Assembly: GCF_000014145.1 (NCBI RefSeq)
Contig: NC_008255.1
Coordinates: 4,356,001-4,420,000 of the forward strand
Origin: Cytophaga hutchinsonii ATCC 33406
GTDB lineage: Bacteria; Bacteroidota; Bacteroidia; Cytophagales; Cytophagaceae
Length of the DNA: 64,000 bases
Direction: 5' to 3'
The position numbers and the translations under genes were made by a program. The notes beneath the pieces were generated by a model. That model did no database searches. It was not told the DNA's origin and was given only the letters and a program-made list of their open reading frames with translations. Shown here in pieces: positions 23,383-32,731 of this stretch. Within the stretch, counting starts at the first letter, position 1; every line of letters starts with the position of its first letter.

Positions 23383-24348
23383 CTATTTGTTATACTTATT
23401 CCTGTAATCCACCGGCGACATACCTGCTACCTTTTTAAACACATCTCTAAACGCTTTCACATCGGTATAGCCAACGTCGTACATCACTTCGTTCACCGTT
23501 TTCCGGCCGGATTCCAATTGCTTTTTAGCTGCTTCAATTTTTACACGCTGAATGTATTCAATAACTGTATTTGTGGTTGCTTTTTTGAATCGCCGCTCAA
23601 ACGTTCTGCGCCCTATACCAAATTTTTCTGCCAGTTCGTCAACGGTTATTTTTTCTGCAAAATGTTTTTCAATAAATTCCTGCGCTTTAATGATCGGCAG
23701 GTCGTCGTGATCTTTTTGTCCTTTAAACATGACAAACTGCGACTGCGTATTGCGATCCATTTCAAGCAAAAAAAATTTCGATGCCATAATGGCCATTTCG
23801 CGGTTGGTATATTTTTCTACCAGATATAACAGCAGGTTCCAGTATGAGGTAGCACCGCCGCTGGAATAGATGCCATTCTGATCGGTGATAATCTTATCAT
23901 CCGTAAGCGTAACGTCAGGAAACATGGTCCGGAATTCATTCGCAAACAACCAGTGCGTGGAACAGCTCTTACCTTTTAATATACCCGTTGAAGCAAGCAG
24001 GAATGCACCGACACATAAGCTCGCAACTTCTGTACCTTTTTTATAGTGCTCTGTGATCCATGGCAGGTAAGCGCTGTTCTTTTTTATTGCCTCCTGCATA
24101 TTACCGCTTAAGGCTGGGATAATGATGAGATCTGTTTTTTTTATATCTTTTATTGTCGCATCTGTATGAATAGAAATGAGCCCATCCTGAAGGGTTACTT
24201 CTTTATTCAGCCCCACAAGGTTTACTGAAAAGGCCGGTTGCAACTCAGCAATCTTTAAAAAGTCGTTTATGGCACTGAACATATACCGCGGATCTACAAT
24301 AGCAGCAGGCACAGCAGTTTCAAGAACTAAAATAGACACGTGTTTCAT
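23383..24348 (-). CDS. AraC-family regulator with DJ-1/PfpI (GATase1-like) domain
   Basis: 321 residues. Residues about 4-180 are a DJ-1/PfpI-like domain with the nucleophile-elbow Cys C112 (SLCVGAFLLAS), as in GATase1_AraC regulators such as FtrA/ArgR-type. The last 100 residues are a double HTH of AraC type (FGIGRRTFERRFKKATT and DVGYTDVKAFRDVFKKVAG). Such proteins sense small metabolites and activate nearby catabolic genes. The divergent neighbour at 24464 (SnoaL-like) and the SRPBCC genes behind it are natural targets, which is inference. Confidence 0.9.
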   Translation of the reverse strand: MKHVSILVLETAVPAAIVDPRYMFSAINDFLKIAELQPAFSVNLVGLNKEVTLQDGLISIHTDATIKDIKKTDLIIIPALSGNMQEAIKKNSAYLPWITEHYKKGTEVASLCVGAFLLASTGILKGKSCSTHWLFANEFRTMFPDVTLTDDKIITDQNGIYSSGGATSYWNLLLYLVEKYTNREMAIMASKFFLLEMDRNTQSQFVMFKGQKDHDDLPIIKAQEFIEKHFAEKITVDELAEKFGIGRRTFERRFKKATTNTVIEYIQRVKIEAAKKQLESGRKTVNEVMYDVGYTDVKAFRDVFKKVAGMSPVDYRNKYNK

Positions 24349-24430
24349 GCTGTAAAGTAAGCCAAAAGATTTGTCGTAATCAACCCGTCAGTTTGTCGTT
24401 TTTGCACGATCTTTAGTAGGATATTACACT

Positions 24431-24438
24431 TACATTTG
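24431..24438 (+). promoter_or_regulatory. -7 promoter element (TACATTTG)
   Basis: Exact match to TAnnTTTG 25 bases before the ATG of the SnoaL-like gene. A TTTG at 24401-24404 is a possible but distant -33 element. Confidence 0.5.
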
Positions 24439-24463
24439 TATTATCCAAAACGCATACGAATAC

Positions 24464-24799
24464 ATGGAAACAACACATTATTCAATAGCCCAACATTTTT
24501 CCAGCGGAGATTTTCCGGCAGTTTACGCTTGTTTTAATGATATAATAGAATGGAATATTATTGGAAATCAGGTAGTGAAAGGAAAGGCTGATGTAATTGA
24601 TTTCTGCAATAAAATGTTACCAGAAATGAAAGGTGCTGTATTAACAAATGATAATGTGATTCAGAATGAAAATCAGATTGTAATTGAAGGGAAATGTCGT
24701 TATTTTGATGCGGAAGGAAAAGAAGCGTTCGTAAGTTATTGTGACATTTACCGGTTTGAAAACGATACAATAAAAACAATTACTTCTTATTGCATATAA
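24464..24799 (+). CDS. SnoaL-like (NTF2-fold) protein
   Basis: 111 residues. The pattern of an N-terminal helix (YSIAQHFSSGDF), then WNIIGNQVVKGKADVIDFC, and final beta strands (YCDIYRFENDTIKTITSYCI) is that of the SnoaL/NTF2-like fold. Members range from polyketide cyclases to detoxification enzymes and ligand-binding proteins. No function can be set. It is first in a run of plus-strand genes followed by three SRPBCC proteins. Confidence 0.75.
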   Translation: METTHYSIAQHFSSGDFPAVYACFNDIIEWNIIGNQVVKGKADVIDFCNKMLPEMKGAVLTNDNVIQNENQIVIEGKCRYFDAEGKEAFVSYCDIYRFENDTIKTITSYCI

Positions 24800-24830
24800 A
24801 TAAATTTTAAAACATAAATGATAACGATAC

Positions 24831-25244
24831 ATGGGAAATAAAATAACTGTTGAAGTAACAGTATACGCGGCAATCGAAAAAGTATGGAAATACTGGAACG
24901 AACCTGCACACATCATGAAGTGGTGCCAGGCATCGCCGGAATGGCATGTGCCTGCTGCCCAAAATGACTTAAAAGCGGGCGGTACATTTACAACAACAAT
25001 GGCAGCAAAAGACGGCAGCATGAGTTTTGATTTTGGCGGGGTGTATGATCAGGTAAAAACAAATGATCTGATCGAATATACGATAGGCGATGGAAGAAAA
25101 GTACGAATTGTTTTTACGCATACAGGAGATACAACAAACATTGTTGAAAGTTTTGATCCGGAAGAAACCAATCCAAGAGAGCTGCAGCAAAGTGGCTGGC
25201 AGGCAATTTTAAATAGTTTTAAATCATATACTGAAAATAATTAA
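24831..25244 (+). CDS. SRPBCC-family protein (AHSA1-like)
   Basis: 137 residues. VEVTVYAAIEKVWKYWNEPA, then MKWCQASPEWHVPA and the C-terminal ESFDPEETNPRELQQSGWQAIL are the usual blocks of the AHSA1 (activator of Hsp90 ATPase homologue 1-like) branch. It is a cytoplasmic hydrophobic-pocket protein of unknown ligand. It follows the SnoaL-like gene by 31 bases. Confidence 0.85.
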   Translation: MGNKITVEVTVYAAIEKVWKYWNEPAHIMKWCQASPEWHVPAAQNDLKAGGTFTTTMAAKDGSMSFDFGGVYDQVKTNDLIEYTIGDGRKVRIVFTHTGDTTNIVESFDPEETNPRELQQSGWQAILNSFKSYTENN

Positions 25245-25267
25245 TTCTAACCTAACCTTTTTTCGAC

Positions 25268-25798
25268 ATGAAAATTCTTAAGAAAATTTTAATCGGTCTT
25301 GCCGTATTCATTGCATTACTATTGCTTATAGCAGTATTTATTCCGACAACCTATACCGTATCTGTATCAACGACTATTCATAAACCGCAGCAGGAAGTAT
25401 ATGACTATGTTAAACAGATTAAAAATCAGGAAAACTACAGCATCTGGGTAATGCAGGATACAAATGTAGTAATGACGTATACAGGTACAGATGGCACGGT
25501 TGGCTTTATTGCAAACTGGAATAGCAAAGATGATAATGTTGGGGAAGGCGAACAGGAGATCACGAAAGTTGATGGGGAACGTGTAGATGTGGACCTGCGT
25601 TTCAAACGCCCGTTTGAAGGACAATCCAAAGCAGCAACAATTGTGAAAGCAGTCTCTGCGAATGAAACACAGGTAACGAGTGAGTTTTACGGACATAATC
25701 CATACCCTACAAACTTAATGTGTTTTGTTGGAAAAATGTTTATCAAAGACGCACAAACGCAGAATATGGCCAACCTGAAAGCCATTCTGGAAAAATAA
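25268..25798 (+). CDS. Membrane-anchored SRPBCC protein, paralogue 1
   Basis: 176 residues. An N-terminal hydrophobic segment (about 8-26) anchors a START-like domain (polyketide-cyclase-2 type) with KPQQEVYDYVKQIKNQENY, TDGTVGFIANW and a closing helix. It is a clear paralogue of the next gene, sharing VGFI-W, GEQEIT and LRF-RPF/KPF blocks. The ligand is unknown. Confidence 0.75.
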   Translation: MKILKKILIGLAVFIALLLLIAVFIPTTYTVSVSTTIHKPQQEVYDYVKQIKNQENYSIWVMQDTNVVMTYTGTDGTVGFIANWNSKDDNVGEGEQEITKVDGERVDVDLRFKRPFEGQSKAATIVKAVSANETQVTSEFYGHNPYPTNLMCFVGKMFIKDAQTQNMANLKAILEK

Positions 25799-25828
25799 TA
25801 GTACAGTACTTCATTAAAAGCAACGTAT

Positions 25829-26353
25829 ATGTTAGCATACATAGCATACAGTATCGGCGGATTACTGGCAGTTATTGTATTAATCGCACTGGTTATCAAA
25901 AAGGATTATGTAATTGTATCTGAAGTTGTAATTAATAAGCCAAAGGATGAAGTTTTTAATTACATTATTCAGCTGAAAAATCAACGGTATTATAACAAAT
26001 GGATAATGGCTGATCCTGACGTAAAGCTTAGCTATGCGGGTGTTGACGCAACCGTAGGATTTATTTCTGCCTGGGAAACAAATAATGCCGGAAAAGGAGA
26101 ACAGGAAATTACAGCCATTAAAAACGGAGAAAGCTGTGATGTAGAACTGCGTTTTGAAAAACCATTTAAAGGAGTGAGCTATTATAAAGCAGTAACGGAA
26201 TCGGTTTCAGCATCACAGACAAAAGTGCGTACCACATTCAATACGCGAACAGAATTTCCAATGAGCGCAATGATTCCCTTTTTGAAAATAATGCTGACAA
26301 AGGATATGCATGAAAATGCCAGGAATTTAAAAACTGTTATTGAAAAACAATAA
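25829..26353 (+). CDS. Membrane-anchored SRPBCC protein, paralogue 2
   Basis: 174 residues with the same plan as the gene before it: a TM segment (about 5-24), then a START-like domain (NKPKDEVFNYIIQLKNQRYY, ATVGFISAWETN, GKGEQEIT). The tandem pair arose by duplication. It ends one base before the start of a 73-residue ORF. Confidence 0.75.
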   Translation: MLAYIAYSIGGLLAVIVLIALVIKKDYVIVSEVVINKPKDEVFNYIIQLKNQRYYNKWIMADPDVKLSYAGVDATVGFISAWETNNAGKGEQEITAIKNGESCDVELRFEKPFKGVSYYKAVTESVSASQTKVRTTFNTRTEFPMSAMIPFLKIMLTKDMHENARNLKTVIEKQ

Positions 26354-26354
26354 A

Positions 26355-26573
26355 ATGATTGTAGAGGTTTTTAAAACGAATGTATTAAATAAAGAGGTTG
26401 CTGACAAAATTGTTAGCGACCTTTCTATCGAAATGCCTCAATCAAAAATAAATTTTGACCTTAGCGATTGCGATAAAATTTTGCGTATTGAAAGCCGTAC
26501 CGAAATTCATATTGAACGTGTTACCCAACATATGATCAGCTGGGGATATAAATGCGAGATACTGGAGGCTTAA
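26355..26573 (+). CDS. Small HMA-fold-like protein of unknown function
   Basis: 72 residues from the ATG at 26355, one base after the previous stop. The order beta-alpha-beta-beta-alpha-beta (MIVEVFKTNV, KEVADKIVSDL, KINFDLSDCDKILRIES, ERVTQHMISWGYKCEIL) resembles the heavy-metal-associated ferredoxin-like fold, but there is no CxxC metal site. Function unknown. It is probably cotranscribed with the SRPBCC pair. Confidence 0.6.
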   Translation: MIVEVFKTNVLNKEVADKIVSDLSIEMPQSKINFDLSDCDKILRIESRTEIHIERVTQHMISWGYKCEILEA

Positions 26574-26596
26574 TTTTTTGGAATAATTTTCTATTT

Positions 26597-26698
26597 TTCA
26601 TATACATTTCAAAAATTCCTGATGAGAATGTGCCTGCAATCACATTAAATAACGTATCTTATGTATTCAAAAATACTCTTTTTTGAAATGTATATGAA
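26597..26698. repeat. 19-bp inverted repeat ending at the UbiA start codon
   Basis: Left arm 26597-26615 and right arm 26680-26698 are exact 19-base reverse complements with a 64-base loop. The right arm ends on the A of the ATG at 26698. It could sequester the translation start, bind a regulator, or end upstream transcription. Confidence 0.8.
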
Positions 26699-27573
26699 TG
26701 ACACAGTTAATTGATAAAAATACCTTAAAATTATTACGGGTACCTTTTTCTCTTTTTTTAATGCCCTTATTTTTATTGGCATTAAGCCAGTCTGGTGTCT
26801 ATATTTTAAGCGTGTATGTACTTATATCATTCTTTATTATCCACTTTCTGGTTTATCCATCAAGCAATGGGTATAACAGTTATATAGACAAAGATGAAGA
26901 CAGCATTGGCGGTCTGGAAAAACCTCCTATGCCAACTAAAAAATTATATTATCTCACCCTTGTACTGGATGTACTTGCACTACTGCTGGCATACTTCCTT
27001 GTCAGTCCGTTGTTTGCTTTGTGTATACTTATGTATATGCTGGCTTCAAGAGCTTACAGTTCAAAAGAGATCCGGTTAAAAAAGTATCCTTACATTGGTT
27101 TTCTGGTAGTAGTTTTTTTTCAAGGCGCATTTACATATTATACCTGCTATGCAGGTATAACCGGCCATGCCTTGGAGCTGAATAAACCTGCGTTGTTTTT
27201 GTTGCTGGCTGGTTCCTTCCAGATTGCAGGGGCGTATCCGTTAACGCAGATCTATCAGCATCAACAAGACCTGAGAGATGGTGTTATAACGATAAGCTAT
27301 AAGCTTGGATATGCCGGAACATTTATTTTTACCGGAATAATGTTTACAATCACAAATGTGTGCTATTTTATCTATTTCAATCTGACAGGAAAATTAAACA
27401 ATTTCTATCTCGTGCAGATTTTCTTTATTCCCATTGTCGCTTATTATATATATTGGTTCGTAAAAGTTCTTCAGGATACAAAAGCTGCCAATTTTAAACA
27501 TACCATGTACATGAATCTTGTTGCAGCAATCTGTATGAACAGCTGCTTTCTTGTATTATACAGCATTAATTAA
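26698..27573 (+). CDS. UbiA-family prenyltransferase
   Basis: 291 residues, eight or nine TM segments. The first Asp-rich motif NSYIDKDED (NxxxDxxxD, about residue 60) and the second, QQDLRDG (about 200), bind the Mg-diphosphate of the prenyl donor in this family. Members attach prenyl chains to aromatic acceptors (ubiquinone, menaquinone, tocopherol, heme O) or to glycerol phosphate. Here the neighbour is a type III polyketide synthase, 10 bases downstream, so an aromatic polyketide is the most likely acceptor. That is inference. A 19-bp inverted repeat ends at its start codon. Confidence 0.85.
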   Translation: MTQLIDKNTLKLLRVPFSLFLMPLFLLALSQSGVYILSVYVLISFFIIHFLVYPSSNGYNSYIDKDEDSIGGLEKPPMPTKKLYYLTLVLDVLALLLAYFLVSPLFALCILMYMLASRAYSSKEIRLKKYPYIGFLVVVFFQGAFTYYTCYAGITGHALELNKPALFLLLAGSFQIAGAYPLTQIYQHQQDLRDGVITISYKLGYAGTFIFTGIMFTITNVCYFIYFNLTGKLNNFYLVQIFFIPIVAYYIYWFVKVLQDTKAANFKHTMYMNLVAAICMNSCFLVLYSIN

Positions 27574-27583
27574 AAATTGAACC

Positions 27584-28672
27584 GTGAGTTATATTGCAGC
27601 GATAGAAACGAGTGTGCCGGAGCATATGCATACACAAAAAGAGTTTACAACCTTTTATGCAAATTCCACAGAGGATGTTGACGTTCAGCGGAAGATTAAA
27701 ATTATTGCTTCTAAAACAGGAATTGAAAAGCGGTATTCGGTGCTAAAGGATTTTAATGCTCAGCCGGAAGATTTTGAATTTTTTCCAAAGGATGCTTCAT
27801 TACTTCCAGAACCCGGATTGTCAAAACGTATGGAGATCTTTAACAAAGAAGCTCTTCAGCTTTCCATTAAAACAATATCAAAGATTCCGGAATTCGATCA
27901 TATTAAAAATACAATCACGCACCTGATCACCGTAACGTGTACCGGTTTATTTGCACCGGGTCTGGATATACAGTTGATCCAGGCATTAGCATTGAAGCCG
28001 TCCATTAACAGAAGCAGCATTAATTTTATGGGTTGTAATGCCGCCATACTTGCGTTGAAGCAGGCGGATGTTATCTGTAAGGCAAATGGAAATGCAAACG
28101 TACTAATTGTATGCACGGAATTATGTTCGATCCATTTTCAAAAAGATTATTCGGATGACTATATTATCTCAAATCAGTTGTTCGGAGATGGTTGTGCTGC
28201 TGTACTTGTAACGGCTGATCCGGTAGCATATGCAACGGATCAATTAGTTAAAATAAATGAATTTCACTCCTTGCTTTTACATAAAGGCTATAATGATATG
28301 GCCTGGCAGTTATCGGAAACAGGTTTTAGAATGAATTTGACAACGTATGTGTCAGACCTGATCAATGGCAATATTAAACAGATGCTTGCAGACATAAATG
28401 TTGATGCGAATGCCATTAATTTTTGGGCCGTACATCCCGGAGGCAGAAAAATTATTGATGGCTTTTGTGAGGCATTGCGATTAGATAAAGGTCAGCTGGA
28501 AGCTTCTTATGATGTATTAAAAAATTACGGAAATATGTCTTCCCCGACAATCCTTTTTGTATTGAAACAGGTGCTTGATGGAAACAAAGAATCTGCAAAA
28601 GGCAAATCCCTATTGACAGCTGCGTTTGGGCCAGGATTGAGTATAGAAACGCTTACGCTGGTATATGCTTAA
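27584..28672 (+). CDS. Type III polyketide synthase
   Basis: 362 residues with a GTG start, 10 bases after the UbiA stop. The catalytic triad of chalcone/stilbene-type synthases is visible: C151 (FMGCNAAI), H284 (AVHPGGRK) and N317 (NYGNMSSPT). These homodimeric enzymes extend an acyl-CoA with malonyl-CoA and cyclise the chain to resorcinols, pyrones or phloroglucinols. The Cys motif and length fit the bacterial alkylresorcinol/pyrone group better than plant enzymes, but starter and product cannot be told. It overlaps the methyltransferase gene by 8 bases. Confidence 0.92.
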   Translation: MSYIAAIETSVPEHMHTQKEFTTFYANSTEDVDVQRKIKIIASKTGIEKRYSVLKDFNAQPEDFEFFPKDASLLPEPGLSKRMEIFNKEALQLSIKTISKIPEFDHIKNTITHLITVTCTGLFAPGLDIQLIQALALKPSINRSSINFMGCNAAILALKQADVICKANGNANVLIVCTELCSIHFQKDYSDDYIISNQLFGDGCAAVLVTADPVAYATDQLVKINEFHSLLLHKGYNDMAWQLSETGFRMNLTTYVSDLINGNIKQMLADINVDANAINFWAVHPGGRKIIDGFCEALRLDKGQLEASYDVLKNYGNMSSPTILFVLKQVLDGNKESAKGKSLLTAAFGPGLSIETLTLVYA

Positions 28673-29357
28673 ATTCAGGAGTCATACAAAAGAATTACTG
28701 GATGGAGACGCAATTCCTGAAAAGGATTTGTTTCAAAATCTGAAAGAATTAGACACTATAAATAAATTGCTTGGCGGATATAAGATCAGCTTGTCTGCCA
28801 TTGATGAACTGATTAAAAATGCTGCTGCATATAAGCTTGTAGATATAGGCTGTGGCGGAGGTGATACATTAAAATATATGTATCACTGGGCCAAAAGAAC
28901 GGATAAAAATCTTTCATTGGTTGGCATTGATATTAAACCGGTTTGTATTGAATATGCAAAAACAAATACAGCTGATTTGCCTATTCAGTATATCTGCGAT
29001 GATTATAAACAGGCGTTTAATCATATTGAAAAAATTGATTTTATTCACGCGTGTTTATTTTGTCATCACCTTTCAGAAGAACAACTTGTAGAACTGATTC
29101 AGTTTGCTTTAATAAATAAAACAACATTGGTTGTGAATGATCTTGAACGCAATCCGATCGCATATTATTCCATCAAATGGCTGACAGCAATTTTTTCTCA
29201 TTCGTATCTGGTGAAAAATGATGCGCCGCTTTCTGTTGCACGCGGATTTAAAAAGAAAGAATGGGAAGCGCTTCTGAAAAAGGCAGGAGCTGCAACGTAT
29301 TCGGTTAAAAATAAATGGGCATTCCGCCATCAGGTGATTGTTTATGGAAATCAATAA
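28665..29357 (+). CDS. Class I SAM-dependent methyltransferase
   Basis: 230 residues. SAM-binding motif I is VDIGCGGGDTL (about residue 65) and motif II ends in VGIDIKPVCIEYA. The post-motif region IDFIHACLFCHHLSEEQ fits small-molecule methyltransferases. Its place between a type III PKS and a flavoprotein recalls the Streptomyces srs operon, where SrsB methylates an alkylresorcinol. Translational coupling is likely at both ends (8-base and 14-base overlaps). Confidence 0.87.
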   Translation: MLKFRSHTKELLDGDAIPEKDLFQNLKELDTINKLLGGYKISLSAIDELIKNAAAYKLVDIGCGGGDTLKYMYHWAKRTDKNLSLVGIDIKPVCIEYAKTNTADLPIQYICDDYKQAFNHIEKIDFIHACLFCHHLSEEQLVELIQFALINKTTLVVNDLERNPIAYYSIKWLTAIFSHSYLVKNDAPLSVARGFKKKEWEALLKKAGAATYSVKNKWAFRHQVIVYGNQ

Positions 29358-30477
29358 CAAACCCTATAAATGTGCTGTTATCGGAGGCGGTGTTGCAGGT
29401 CTAAGCCTTGCTATTCAGCTTGCGGACCATGGTCTGGATGTTATTGTATTTGAAAAGAATACGTATCCGTTTCATAAAGTCTGCGGCGAATATATTTCAA
29501 TGGAAAGCTGGAATTTTTTGCTTTCATTGGGTTTGCCGCTGACAGAAATGCATCTTCCGCATATAAAACAACTAGGTATTTCTTCTGAAAAAGGCTTTAT
29601 GCTTCAGGCACCGTTAGCATTGGGCGGCTTTGGAATAAGCCGTTTTACACTGGATCAGCAATTGTATTTTTTAGCAAAGGCAAAGGGCGTCCGGGTTATT
29701 GAAAATTGCAGAGTAACACATGTTACAAACGATGCTGATCAGATAACATGCATCACAACATCTGCCGGAATATTTACTGCAGAAATTGTTTGCGGCAGTT
29801 ATGGAAAATATACACCCGCGTTTGCCAAAAATGAAACCAATTCAAAAAAGGAAGTTATAAATTACATAGGCGTTAAATATCATATTAAAACTGATTTCCC
29901 AAATAATAAAATTGAATTGCATAATTTTGAAGGCGGTTACTGCGGTATTTCAAAAGTTGAAAACAATACATATTGTTTGTGTTATTTATCTGCTTCAGAT
30001 CAATTGAAGCAGGCAGATAATGATATAAAAATCCTGGAAGAAACTATATTGTTTCGGAATAAATACCTGAAACAAATTTTTACGGAATCGAAATTTTTGT
30101 TTCAGCAGCCTGTTGTTACCAGCAATGTTACCTTTCATAAAAAAAATACATATGTAAACGGCATTTTCTTAGTAGGTGATGCTGCCGGTTCGATAACACC
30201 GCTCTGCGGAAACGGCATGAGCATGGGCTTACGCGGATCATTTATTCTGGCGCAACTGTTGATTTCCTTTTATAAAACAAACAGCCGTAAAAAACCGCTG
30301 ATTGCCGCATATCAGCATGAATGGAATAAACAGTTTAATACACGCATACAAACAGGATATTATCTTCAACACCTGTTTGGCAAAAAAAACACAACACATC
30401 TTGTTTTGAAAACACTGGATAAACTTCCGGGGCTTACTCAAAAAATTATTGGACTTACGCACGGGAAACCGTTTTGA
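29344..30477 (+). CDS. FAD-dependent oxidoreductase, geranylgeranyl-reductase/monooxygenase type
   Basis: 377 residues from the ATG at 29344. The FAD Rossmann loop is VIGGGVAGLSLAIQLADHG, followed by KVCGEYIS, the signature shared by geranylgeranyl reductases and related group A flavoproteins. The second FAD motif is LVGDAAGSITPLCGNGMSMG. The family includes prenyl-chain reductases and aromatic hydroxylases or halogenases. In this operon it may hydroxylate the polyketide ring (as SrsC does) or reduce the prenyl tail; sequence alone does not decide. Confidence 0.87.
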   Translation: MEINNKPYKCAVIGGGVAGLSLAIQLADHGLDVIVFEKNTYPFHKVCGEYISMESWNFLLSLGLPLTEMHLPHIKQLGISSEKGFMLQAPLALGGFGISRFTLDQQLYFLAKAKGVRVIENCRVTHVTNDADQITCITTSAGIFTAEIVCGSYGKYTPAFAKNETNSKKEVINYIGVKYHIKTDFPNNKIELHNFEGGYCGISKVENNTYCLCYLSASDQLKQADNDIKILEETILFRNKYLKQIFTESKFLFQQPVVTSNVTFHKKNTYVNGIFLVGDAAGSITPLCGNGMSMGLRGSFILAQLLISFYKTNSRKKPLIAAYQHEWNKQFNTRIQTGYYLQHLFGKKNTTHLVLKTLDKLPGLTQKIIGLTHGKPF

Positions 30478-30524
30478 TTTATATATTTAATCATACTATA
30501 GTTACGTTATCGGATACATAATCA

Positions 30525-31298
30525 ATGGCTGGATTTTCAGTATACATACCTTGTGATGCATTAAAGCCATTTGTTAAAAGTCTGGCTATTTCAGAAAATG
30601 AACACGAACAGGTTTATAAAGTAATTCCGGATACAGCCCTTGTTTTAGGTTTTCAATACAAAGGAAAACTGGCGTATCTAGATGGGTCAAATGAATTGCC
30701 GCTGGCACGTTCGGGTGTAAGCGGACTGAGTGATCACTATAAAATATTTAAAAACTCGGCGGGTATTGGTACCGTGCTGGTTTTCTTTACAGAAACCGGA
30801 GCAGCGCATTTTTTCAAACAGCCGTTGCATGAATTATTCAGGGAAAGTATTTCACTGGATAACTTTATGTTTCAATCCGAATTGTTGATTCTGGAAGCAC
30901 AGCTGGGTGAATCGAAAACAGACCTTGAGCGGATCTCCGTTGTAGAACGGTTTTTACTTTCAAAAATCCGTAGTATTGAACCGGATAAACTAGTATTGGC
31001 AGCCCTTGCACTTATTCATAAAAGCAAAGGCATGATCCGTATCACAGAATTGATGGCGCAGTTACACATCAGTCAAAGCCCGTTGGAAAAGAGATTCAGG
31101 CAGGCAGTAGGCGCATCACCTAAAAAGTTTTCTTCCATTGTGCGGCTAAAACATGCTATTCAGCAGCAGACGCATTCAAACTCCCTTACTGAATTAAGTT
31201 ACGAACTGGGCTTTTACGATCAGGCACATTTTATCAAAGAGTTCAAAAAATTTACCGGAGATACACCAGAGATTTTTTTTTCTTCTCAAAATTCGTAA
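30525..31298 (+). CDS. AraC-family transcriptional regulator
   Basis: 257 residues. The N-terminal 140 residues form the sensor domain seen in many Bacteroidota AraC proteins (opening FSVYIPCDALKPFVKSL). The C-terminal double HTH has TELMAQLHISQSPLEKRFRQ and LGFYDQAHFIKEFKKFTG. It is 47 bases after the flavoprotein gene, so it might regulate the polyketide operon or the following YbcV-like gene. No operator was recognised. Confidence 0.87.
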   Translation: MAGFSVYIPCDALKPFVKSLAISENEHEQVYKVIPDTALVLGFQYKGKLAYLDGSNELPLARSGVSGLSDHYKIFKNSAGIGTVLVFFTETGAAHFFKQPLHELFRESISLDNFMFQSELLILEAQLGESKTDLERISVVERFLLSKIRSIEPDKLVLAALALIHKSKGMIRITELMAQLHISQSPLEKRFRQAVGASPKKFSSIVRLKHAIQQQTHSNSLTELSYELGFYDQAHFIKEFKKFTGDTPEIFFSSQNS

Positions 31299-31379
31299 AA
31301 ACGATTTTTTACAATTCGGGCAAGAGATCTTTTCAAATATTTGTATCAGAAATGTATCAGATATCAAACAACTACTTAT

Positions 31380-31769
31380 ATGTTTACACTTGAACAGATT
31401 AAAGCGGCACATGCCAAAGTAAAAAGCGGCGCAGATTTTCCTTCATATATTCAGGAACTTATAGGCTTAGGCCTGAAGCAATATACGCAGTTTGTAAGCG
31501 ACGGGCATACAATTTATTCCGGAACGGATAATGTTACCATTCAGTCAGAAGCAAAATATCCGGCATTTACTATCGCTGAGAAGGCAGACAAAGCAAAACT
31601 AAAACAGGATCTGGGGATACACCAGCAGGGCGGCACGAATTACATGACATTTTGTGAACAGGCAGCAGCTGCAGGTGTTGAAACATGGATTGTTGATATG
31701 CACAACATGACCTGTATATATTATGATAAAAGCGGAAATGAGATGCTTGCGGAAAACATCCCTGCATAG
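31380..31769 (+). CDS. DUF1398 (YbcV-like) protein
   Basis: 129 residues from the ATG at 31380. MFTLEQIKAAHAKVKSGADF, then YIQELIGLGLKQYTQFVSDG and the end GVETWIVDMHNMTCIYYD match the DUF1398 family, small cytoplasmic proteins of unknown function. In this phylum they often lie next to AraC-type regulators, as here. A stem-loop follows at 31779-31810. Confidence 0.8.
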   Translation: MFTLEQIKAAHAKVKSGADFPSYIQELIGLGLKQYTQFVSDGHTIYSGTDNVTIQSEAKYPAFTIAEKADKAKLKQDLGIHQQGGTNYMTFCEQAAAAGVETWIVDMHNMTCIYYDKSGNEMLAENIPA

Positions 31770-31778
31770 ATAATGAAA

Positions 31779-31810
31779 ATTAGCCGCTCCGCCGCTTCGT
31801 AGCGGCTAAT
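31779..31810. terminator. GC-rich stem-loop after YbcV-like gene
   Basis: ATTAGCCGCT (31779-31788) pairs with AGCGGCTAAT (31801-31810). The plus-strand tail is A-rich rather than T-rich, so termination efficiency is uncertain. Confidence 0.45.
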
Positions 31811-31855
31811 AAAAATGTCAGCAAGTTTCAGATTTTATTATCGTTAAAAACTGAA

Positions 31856-31863
31856 TACTTTTG
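31856..31863 (+). promoter_or_regulatory. -7 promoter element (TACTTTTG) of the Ada-AlkB operon
   Basis: Exact TAnnTTTG match 19 bases before the ATG at 31883. No clear TTG was found at the -33 distance. Confidence 0.5.
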
Positions 31864-31882
31864 TGTGTAAAGTATCAGTAGA

Positions 31883-32731
31883 ATGAACGAACAGGAACAG
31901 ACCAATTACAGCCGTATAGCAGAAGCGATTGAATACATCCGGGCGCACTATAAAGAACAGCCGGGTCTTGATGAAGTTGCAGAGAAAGTTCATTTAAGTC
32001 CGTTTCATTTTCAACGGATATTTACAGAATGGGCAGGTATAAGTCCGAAAAAATTTTTACAATATATAAGCATTCAGCATGCAAAAGAATTATTAAATCA
32101 GTCGCAGCCAACGTTGTTTGATATTGCAGATACTGTTGGTTTGTCTAGTACAAGCAGGCTGCATGACTTGTTCATAAAAATAGAAGGTATGACGCCGGGC
32201 GAATATAAAAACAGCGGTGAAAATCTTTCTATTCAGTATAGTTTTTCAGATACACCGTTCGGAAAAATACTGGTAGCTTCTACATCTAGTGGAATCTGTC
32301 AGTTAACATTTATTGAAAGTGAACAGGACGGACTTACGCGTCTGCAGTCTGTTTTTTCAAATGCCAGCTATACACATGCTGTAAATGAAATGCATGAAAA
32401 TGCGCTGCGTATTTTTTCAATGGATTGGTCGAAGCTGAAACAGATAAAACTGCATTTGAAAGGAACAGATTTTCAATTAAAAGTCTGGGAAGCATTATTA
32501 AAAATTCCTGTGGGTACATTAACAACCTATGGAGATATTGCTTCAAAAATTTATAAGCCTTCAGCTTCCAGAGCCGTAGGGACAGCAATTGGCAGTAATC
32601 CGATCGCGTTTTTAATTCCGTGTCACCGGGTGATACAGACAAGCGGAAATATTGGAGGGTATATGTGGGGGCCAACAAGAAAGACTGCCATAATAGGTTG
32701 GGAAGCAGCTAAAATTGAGGGCACGAAATAA
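31883..32731 (+). CDS. Ada-like fusion: AraC HTH plus O6-methylguanine-DNA methyltransferase
   Basis: 282 residues. Residues about 5-110 form an AraC double HTH (VAEKVHLSPFHFQRIFTEWA). Residues about 115-282 are the methyltransferase, with the acceptor Cys C247 in IPCHRV and the arginine-finger/turn segment SRAVGTAIGSNP. It removes O6-alkyl from guanine by suicide transfer and probably activates alkylation genes. The Ada N-terminal zinc domain (methylphosphotriester sensor with four Cys) is missing, so sensing may differ from E. coli Ada. The stop overlaps the alkB start by one base (TAATG). Confidence 0.93.
   Translation: MNEQEQTNYSRIAEAIEYIRAHYKEQPGLDEVAEKVHLSPFHFQRIFTEWAGISPKKFLQYISIQHAKELLNQSQPTLFDIADTVGLSSTSRLHDLFIKIEGMTPGEYKNSGENLSIQYSFSDTPFGKILVASTSSGICQLTFIESEQDGLTRLQSVFSNASYTHAVNEMHENALRIFSMDWSKLKQIKLHLKGTDFQLKVWEALLKIPVGTLTTYGDIASKIYKPSASRAVGTAIGSNPIAFLIPCHRVIQTSGNIGGYMWGPTRKTAIIGWEAAKIEGTK

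Follow-up and report, generated by a model that had tools for sequence, protein, structure and literature searches.

The window analysed here is a stretch of 64,000 nucleotides (nt) from Cytophaga hutchinsonii ATCC 33406 (NC_008255.1, positions 4,356,001-4,420,000), whose genome is a single contig of 4,433,218 bases. It carries four consecutive forward-strand genes for a putative lipid pathway, which a first-pass annotation had read as one operon. The open reading frame (ORF) coordinates and the Pfam matches bear this out. The first gene (26698-27573) encodes a UbiA-superfamily membrane protein of 291 amino acids (aa), presumably a prenyltransferase, as evidenced by Pfam UbiA (76.9 bits; cut-off 34.2), its motifs and its fold. 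The second (27584-28672) starts with GTG and encodes a type III polyketide synthase (PKS) of 362 aa. Its Chal_sti_synt_N and Chal_sti_synt_C domains (106.4 and 86.4 bits; cut-off 27) and its Cys-His-Asn triad, C151, H284 and N317, all three intact as first annotated, identify it as such an enzyme. The third (28665-29357) encodes an S-adenosylmethionine-dependent methyltransferase of 230 aa (Pfam Methyltransf_25, 40.7 bits, cut-off 27; NCBIfam PRK06202, 125.4 bits, under the cut-off of 243). The fourth (29344-30477) encodes a flavin adenine dinucleotide (FAD)-dependent oxidoreductase, presumably a ring hydroxylase, of 377 aa if its ATG (29344) is taken as the start, with a TTG in the same frame at 29338. 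This flavoprotein matched Pfam DAO (48.5 bits; cut-off 27.9) and FAD_binding_3 (47.6 bits; cut-off 22). The junctions are, in order, a 10-nt gap, an 8-nt overlap and a 14-nt overlap. With its genes for a PKS, a methyltransferase and a flavin oxidoreductase, the locus has the gene content of hid/srs/pkq-like operons; with the UbiA-like prenyltransferase as well, it has that of the agq type, as far as agq is known from descriptions seen in part.

The gene set was followed in two collections. The less biased one is a sample of 296 Bacteroidota genomes; the other consists of the best 80 of at least 561 stretches with a UbiA relative in a one-genome-per-species collection, and leans to close relatives. 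In the genome sample, a UbiA relative was a match at E below 1e-50, and the threshold for a PKS match was E 0.001. Weaker UbiA matches in 8 genomes of one family (E 1e-15 to 1e-20), which probably represent another UbiA type, were excluded. A PKS match was present in 155 of the 296 genomes and a UbiA relative in 21; apart from the genome that holds the window, the identity is 39-48%. All 21 UbiA genomes have the flavoprotein as well as the PKS, the latter at E 4e-72 or better, and 20 have the methyltransferase, G190 being without a match at 1e-15. The hypergeometric p values for this co-occurrence, which ignore shared ancestry, are 6e-7 for the PKS and 4e-16 for the flavoprotein. UbiA adjoins the PKS gene in 16 of the 21; in the other five (G072, G146, G158, G166 and G190) the two genes are far apart or on separate contigs, and both are still retained. 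Gene order and orientation vary among lineages.

Because ORF calling overlooked genes, such as UbiA in many Dyadobacter loci, presence was counted by tblastn and genome searches. Among the 80 best loci, the PKS was found in 80, the methyltransferase in 72, the flavoprotein in 69 and the order UbiA-PKS-methyltransferase-flavoprotein in 67. All 80 are from Bacteroidota, as far as titles tell; one from an uncultured Cytophaga (L127), with 70% identity to the window UbiA, is one of the two closest named among the matches listed. Thirteen loci are incomplete: seven have less than 2.5 kb of contig past UbiA, three carry a hydroxylase replacement and three have real gaps (L159, L161 and L183). Since many other genomes carry these genes as a cluster, the recurrent clustering exceeds chance and is not a local curiosity.

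The first-pass annotation had called a prenylated aromatic polyketide plausible, and the gene content, the co-occurrence and the signature residues of the PKS support this view. We consider it likely that the operon encodes the synthesis of a prenylated phenolic lipid, namely an alkylresorcinol that is methylated, hydroxylated and prenylated. The PKS would use malonyl units to elongate a long-chain acyl starter and would close the alkylresorcinol, which the methyltransferase would methylate. Ring hydroxylation by the flavoprotein would then lead to an alkyl-methoxyhydroquinone or a quinone. The membrane-bound UbiA enzyme would add an isoprenoid, either on the ring itself or on a phenol oxygen, and the resulting lipid would reside in the membrane. 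The substrates, step order, chain lengths and place of prenylation in this scheme are all inferred from the observed genes, PKS residues, conserved gene set and hydroxylase-like replacement.

Several points weigh against this pathway. First, among NCBIfam models the flavoprotein is matched best by the geranylgeranyl reductase family TIGR02032 (87.6 bits, not reaching the cut-off of 158.8). In addition, alignment with 4od4 places a variable residue at the third Asp of UbiA motif I and Gln at the first Asp of motif II (41 of 41 rows). Two loci, L159 and L161, carry UbiA and the PKS with neither of the other genes within about 7-8 kb downstream, and no methyltransferase was found by tblastn in L183. 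The PKSs of UbiA clusters do not form one clade. In the published account, of which we saw part, a co-expressed methyltransferase and FAD gene of Gimesia gave a single methylation only. Finally, the product itself is a prediction.

The reductase match raises an alternative in which the flavoprotein saturates the isoprenoid added by UbiA, as in bacteriochlorophyll or archaeal ether lipids, and the ring is only methylated. The UbiA protein fits this alternative, as its best-scoring model is that of bacteriochlorophyll synthase (39.6 bits, below the cut-off of 212.3) and its fold is nearest to an archaeal digeranylgeranylglyceryl phosphate (DGGGP) synthase; the agq product, according to partial sources, also has a reduced geranyl chain. 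However, the flavoprotein tracks the PKS and not UbiA. At E 1e-25 it is present in 63 of the 296 genomes, all 63 of which have a PKS match, and 42 of which have no match to the window-type UbiA. In 24 of those 42, the flavoprotein is 35-41% identical to that of the window, and in every one of these 24 the flavoprotein, methyltransferase and PKS genes are consecutive and less than 310 nt apart. Furthermore, three UbiA clusters (L180, L185 and L204) lack the flavoprotein and have in its slot an enzyme of the PHBH/UbiH class (530-534 aa), placed directly after the methyltransferase with a 2-nt gap and overlaps of 32 and 38 nt. These replacements match several aromatic hydroxylase models, all below the cut-offs. 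A Flavobacteriaceae locus (L103) likewise combines a PKS, a methyltransferase and a PHBH/UbiH-class enzyme, and 8 loci contain a member of that recurring neighbour family. In the Flavobacteriaceae-like genomes of L102-L108, genes for a PKS, for a distant methyltransferase and for a PHBH-like enzyme are flanked, by eye, by a MATE-like transporter gene and an aconitase-like gene.

The structural model of the flavoprotein (predicted local distance difference test, pLDDT, 91.7) fails to separate a reductase from the other classes: halogenases head its fold neighbours, and it is similarly close to halogenases, hydroxylases and a geranylgeranyl reductase-like protein. Flavin-dependent halogenases carry a WxWxIP motif. 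This motif is absent from the window enzyme and the other 28 rows, and a halogenase was rejected despite leading the fold list. Because the flavoprotein follows the PKS and hydroxylase-like enzymes replace it in three UbiA clusters, it is most likely a ring hydroxylase rather than a prenyl reductase. Its initial description as being of geranylgeranyl reductase type holds in that this family is the best match, but not at the level of the cut-off; the accompanying suggestion that it may reduce the prenyl chain is disfavoured by the same two lines of evidence, and we regard it as unlikely.

The AlphaFold2 model of the UbiA protein (pLDDT 96.0) has the UbiA fold, and its Foldseek matches are UbiA-type structures, which places the protein within the superfamily. 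The canonical motifs NxxxDxxxD and DxxxD are lacking in its subfamily, which instead has N57-x-x-N60-S61-x-x-D64-x-D66 and Y186-Q187-x-x-x-D191, both invariant in 41 rows. These non-canonical Asp motifs lower the certainty about the prenyl donor and not about the UbiA family. Since chlorophyll synthases likewise depart from the canonical second motif, the window enzyme may still transfer a prenyl group. The genome has three other UbiA-family genes, each with a higher Pfam score.

The altered motifs are nevertheless one reason to consider that UbiA does not prenylate the PKS product, and that it serves another lipid or activity and merely co-occurs with a three-gene alkylquinone pathway. The three-gene core does occur without UbiA, including on plasmids. 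Among seven hand-picked plasmid PKS loci, a methyltransferase and an FAD enzyme are listed near the PKS in five and not in one, the last being unannotated; UbiA is listed in none of the seven annotations, and a search of plasmids for UbiA relatives gave no match at E 0.01. Moreover, activation in a foreign host of the PKS from a published UbiA-containing type III PKS cluster yielded unprenylated alkylresorcinols, according to the part of the report seen. Against this stand the co-occurrence in 21 of 21 genomes, which includes the five genomes where UbiA and the PKS are unlinked, and the adjacency of UbiA and PKS in all 80 best loci. A bystander role for UbiA is improbable in our judgement.

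The residues of the PKS are suggestive of a starter with a long chain and of a resorcinol as product. T120, A124 and C181, mapped through alignments, align with T144, A148 and C205 of PKS18, which we take to line its long acyl tunnel; the two aligned PKS18 chains differ at C205. The three residues are retained in 26, 26 and 24 of 26 PKS relatives, respectively, and W241 in all 26. In a wider set, the W241 column holds Trp in 30 of 35 PKSs and in 17 of 17 from UbiA genomes, the exceptions being four group-B enzymes (Phe) and one PKS18-type enzyme (Leu). The formation of resorcinols or pyrones by Azotobacter ArsB and ArsC is attributed partly to Trp281 in the accessible text of a published account (PMC9927152), and we infer that W241 occupies the same column. 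It is very unlikely that the PKS makes an alkylpyrone that is then methylated and prenylated, as the match of the tunnel residues to PKS18, an alkylpyrone synthase according to partly seen sources, is offset by the Trp where the PKS18-type Tsukamurella enzyme has Leu, by the hydroxylase-like enzymes, which suit a phenol, and by the resorcinols reported, again in sources seen in part, for PKSs of related operons.

One origin for the PKSs of UbiA clusters is disfavoured (17 rows versus 18, approximately unbiased test, p 0.009, with long branches flagged). Since these PKSs are not one clade, repeated gain or loss of UbiA, or else an exchange of the PKS, is probable. Four of the 24 UbiA-less clusters described above (L114, L115, L116 and L117) have the order flavoprotein-methyltransferase-PKS followed by genes that, by eye, resemble those for a short-chain dehydrogenase/reductase, a ketosynthase and a phosphopantetheinyl transferase. 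In their divergent PKS, Phe replaces W241 and Pro replaces C181, so that starter supply and product may differ from those of the window. A relation to flexirubin or dialkylresorcinol was set aside, as the flexirubin genes described for one Dyadobacter are darA/darB, a different system, in the available part of the report (PMC9606717).

A YceI-family gene occurs 13 times in 12 of the 80 best loci (L126, L147, L151, L155, L157, L162, L163, L164, L167, L171, L174 and L203), and nine of the 13 copies lie within 300 nt of the cluster. The expected number near these mutually related loci is 1.2 (from 1.06 per Mb in 19 relatives); the YceI profile was derived from the recurrent neighbours, and the background count used Pfam. 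Because of the relatedness of the loci, the p values calculated for this excess are too small. A YceI gene also abuts the UbiA-less cluster L114. The window genome has five YceI genes, all away from the operon. The PDB relatives of the neighbour YceI are named polyisoprenoid-binding protein. The isoprenoid quinone of Bacteroidota is usually taken to be menaquinone. Most YceI structures contain isoprenoids such as ubiquinone-8, as stated in an article seen in part (PMC9113575). Given these neighbours and the actinobacterial polyketide quinones (PMC9927152, seen in part), a role of the product as a redox lipid or antioxidant is a guess by analogy. More tentatively still for the phylum, many Bacteroidota might have, beside menaquinone, a second prenylated redox lipid, with a polyketide ring instead of one from chorismate, a UbiA enzyme with a rewired metal site and periplasmic carriage by YceI lipocalins, acting as an antioxidant or auxiliary electron carrier; we hold this to be possible and rather doubtful. 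If the proposed pathway is true, a compact four-gene route to prenylated phenolic lipids is spread through Bacteroidota, and it would offer a defined gene set, a predicted lipid class to seek and a UbiA subfamily whose active site is non-canonical. The cluster-adjacent YceI proteins would also gain a possible ligand.

Directly upstream of the UbiA start lies a perfect 19-nt inverted repeat (arms 26597-26615 and 26680-26698, with 64 nt between), the last base of whose second arm is the A of the UbiA start codon ATG. The 111-bp stretch containing it is single-copy in the genome. The repeat is absent from the searched upstream stretches of two congeners, L094 having none and L095 a different one. 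Two tandem SRPBCC (Polyketide_cyc2-like) genes precede the operon (25268-25798 and 25829-26353), of which only the first exceeds the Pfam cut-off; L094 has two copies and L095 one. An AraC-family regulator gene (30525-31298) begins 47 nt past the flavoprotein gene. L094 retains this gene at 79% identity; in L095 it was not found beside the cluster. No Rfam family reached its gathering score in 24000-32000, and the numbers of sigma-70-like sites (20 versus 19.0 in shuffles) and terminator-like sites (4 versus 3.1) were uninformative.

The nearest precedent, compared by description from partly seen sources, is the agq cluster of Actinoplanes missouriensis, reportedly described by Awakawa et al. 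2011. As far as the available texts go, this organism makes 6-alkyl-4-O-dihydrogeranyl-2-methoxyhydroquinones (PMC3569393) with the type III PKS AgqA (PMC10896814), and the alkylresorcinol is hydroxylated and then O-prenylated, as an alkyl-methoxyhydroquinone, by the UbiA-like AgqD (PMC3227686). Unlike the window, agq has an actinobacterial host. The geranyl chain of its product is reduced, whereas a hydroxylating flavoprotein would leave the window operon without another redox enzyme for such a step. The first-pass annotation had named the srs operon as precedent. This is sound as regards the shared PKS and methyltransferase and the presumed hydroxylase, but it left unnamed the nearer agq, which ends in UbiA-like O-prenylation. 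Both srs (Streptomyces griseus) and pkq (mycobacteria and Streptomyces) combine a type III PKS, a methyltransferase and a hydroxylase or oxidoreductase for long-chain or polyketide quinones, but they are actinobacterial and a prenyltransferase goes unmentioned in the portion available (PMC9927152).

The hidABC operon for cyanobacterial hierridins and the methyltransferase-oxidoreductase-PKS operon of Planctomycetota share with the window a type III PKS, a methyltransferase and an FAD oxidoreductase, and their products have the alkylresorcinol core that is predicted for the window (PMC8086630, PMC10896814). In the parts of these reports seen, such operons are generally without UbiA, one hierridin-like cluster (Raphidiopsis) has a prenyltransferase, and the Planctomycetota PKSs produce alkylresorcinols. 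One Planctomycetota flavoprotein is only 23% identical to that of the window. A UbiA gene near a methyltransferase and a type III PKS is also described, in excerpts, for the loseolamycin locus of Micromonospora endolithica (PMC7587189) and a Gephyromycinifex locus (PMC8779670). Unlike the product proposed here, loseolamycins are presented there as alkylresorcinols with no role given to UbiA, and in their locus the place expected for a flavin oxygenase is taken by an acyl-CoA dehydrogenase gene (PMC7587189). Antismash-type surveys, seen in part, count type III PKS (T3PKS) clusters in Flavobacteriaceae (PMC7440613). In the open-access literature, whose long result lists were viewed in part, we found no paper on a Bacteroidota UbiA-type III PKS cluster and nothing contrary to the earlier statement that no product is assigned to such an operon in this genus. 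The pathway type is thus already known from agq; new here are its wide Bacteroidota version, the UbiA subfamily with altered Asp motifs and the YceI neighbours.

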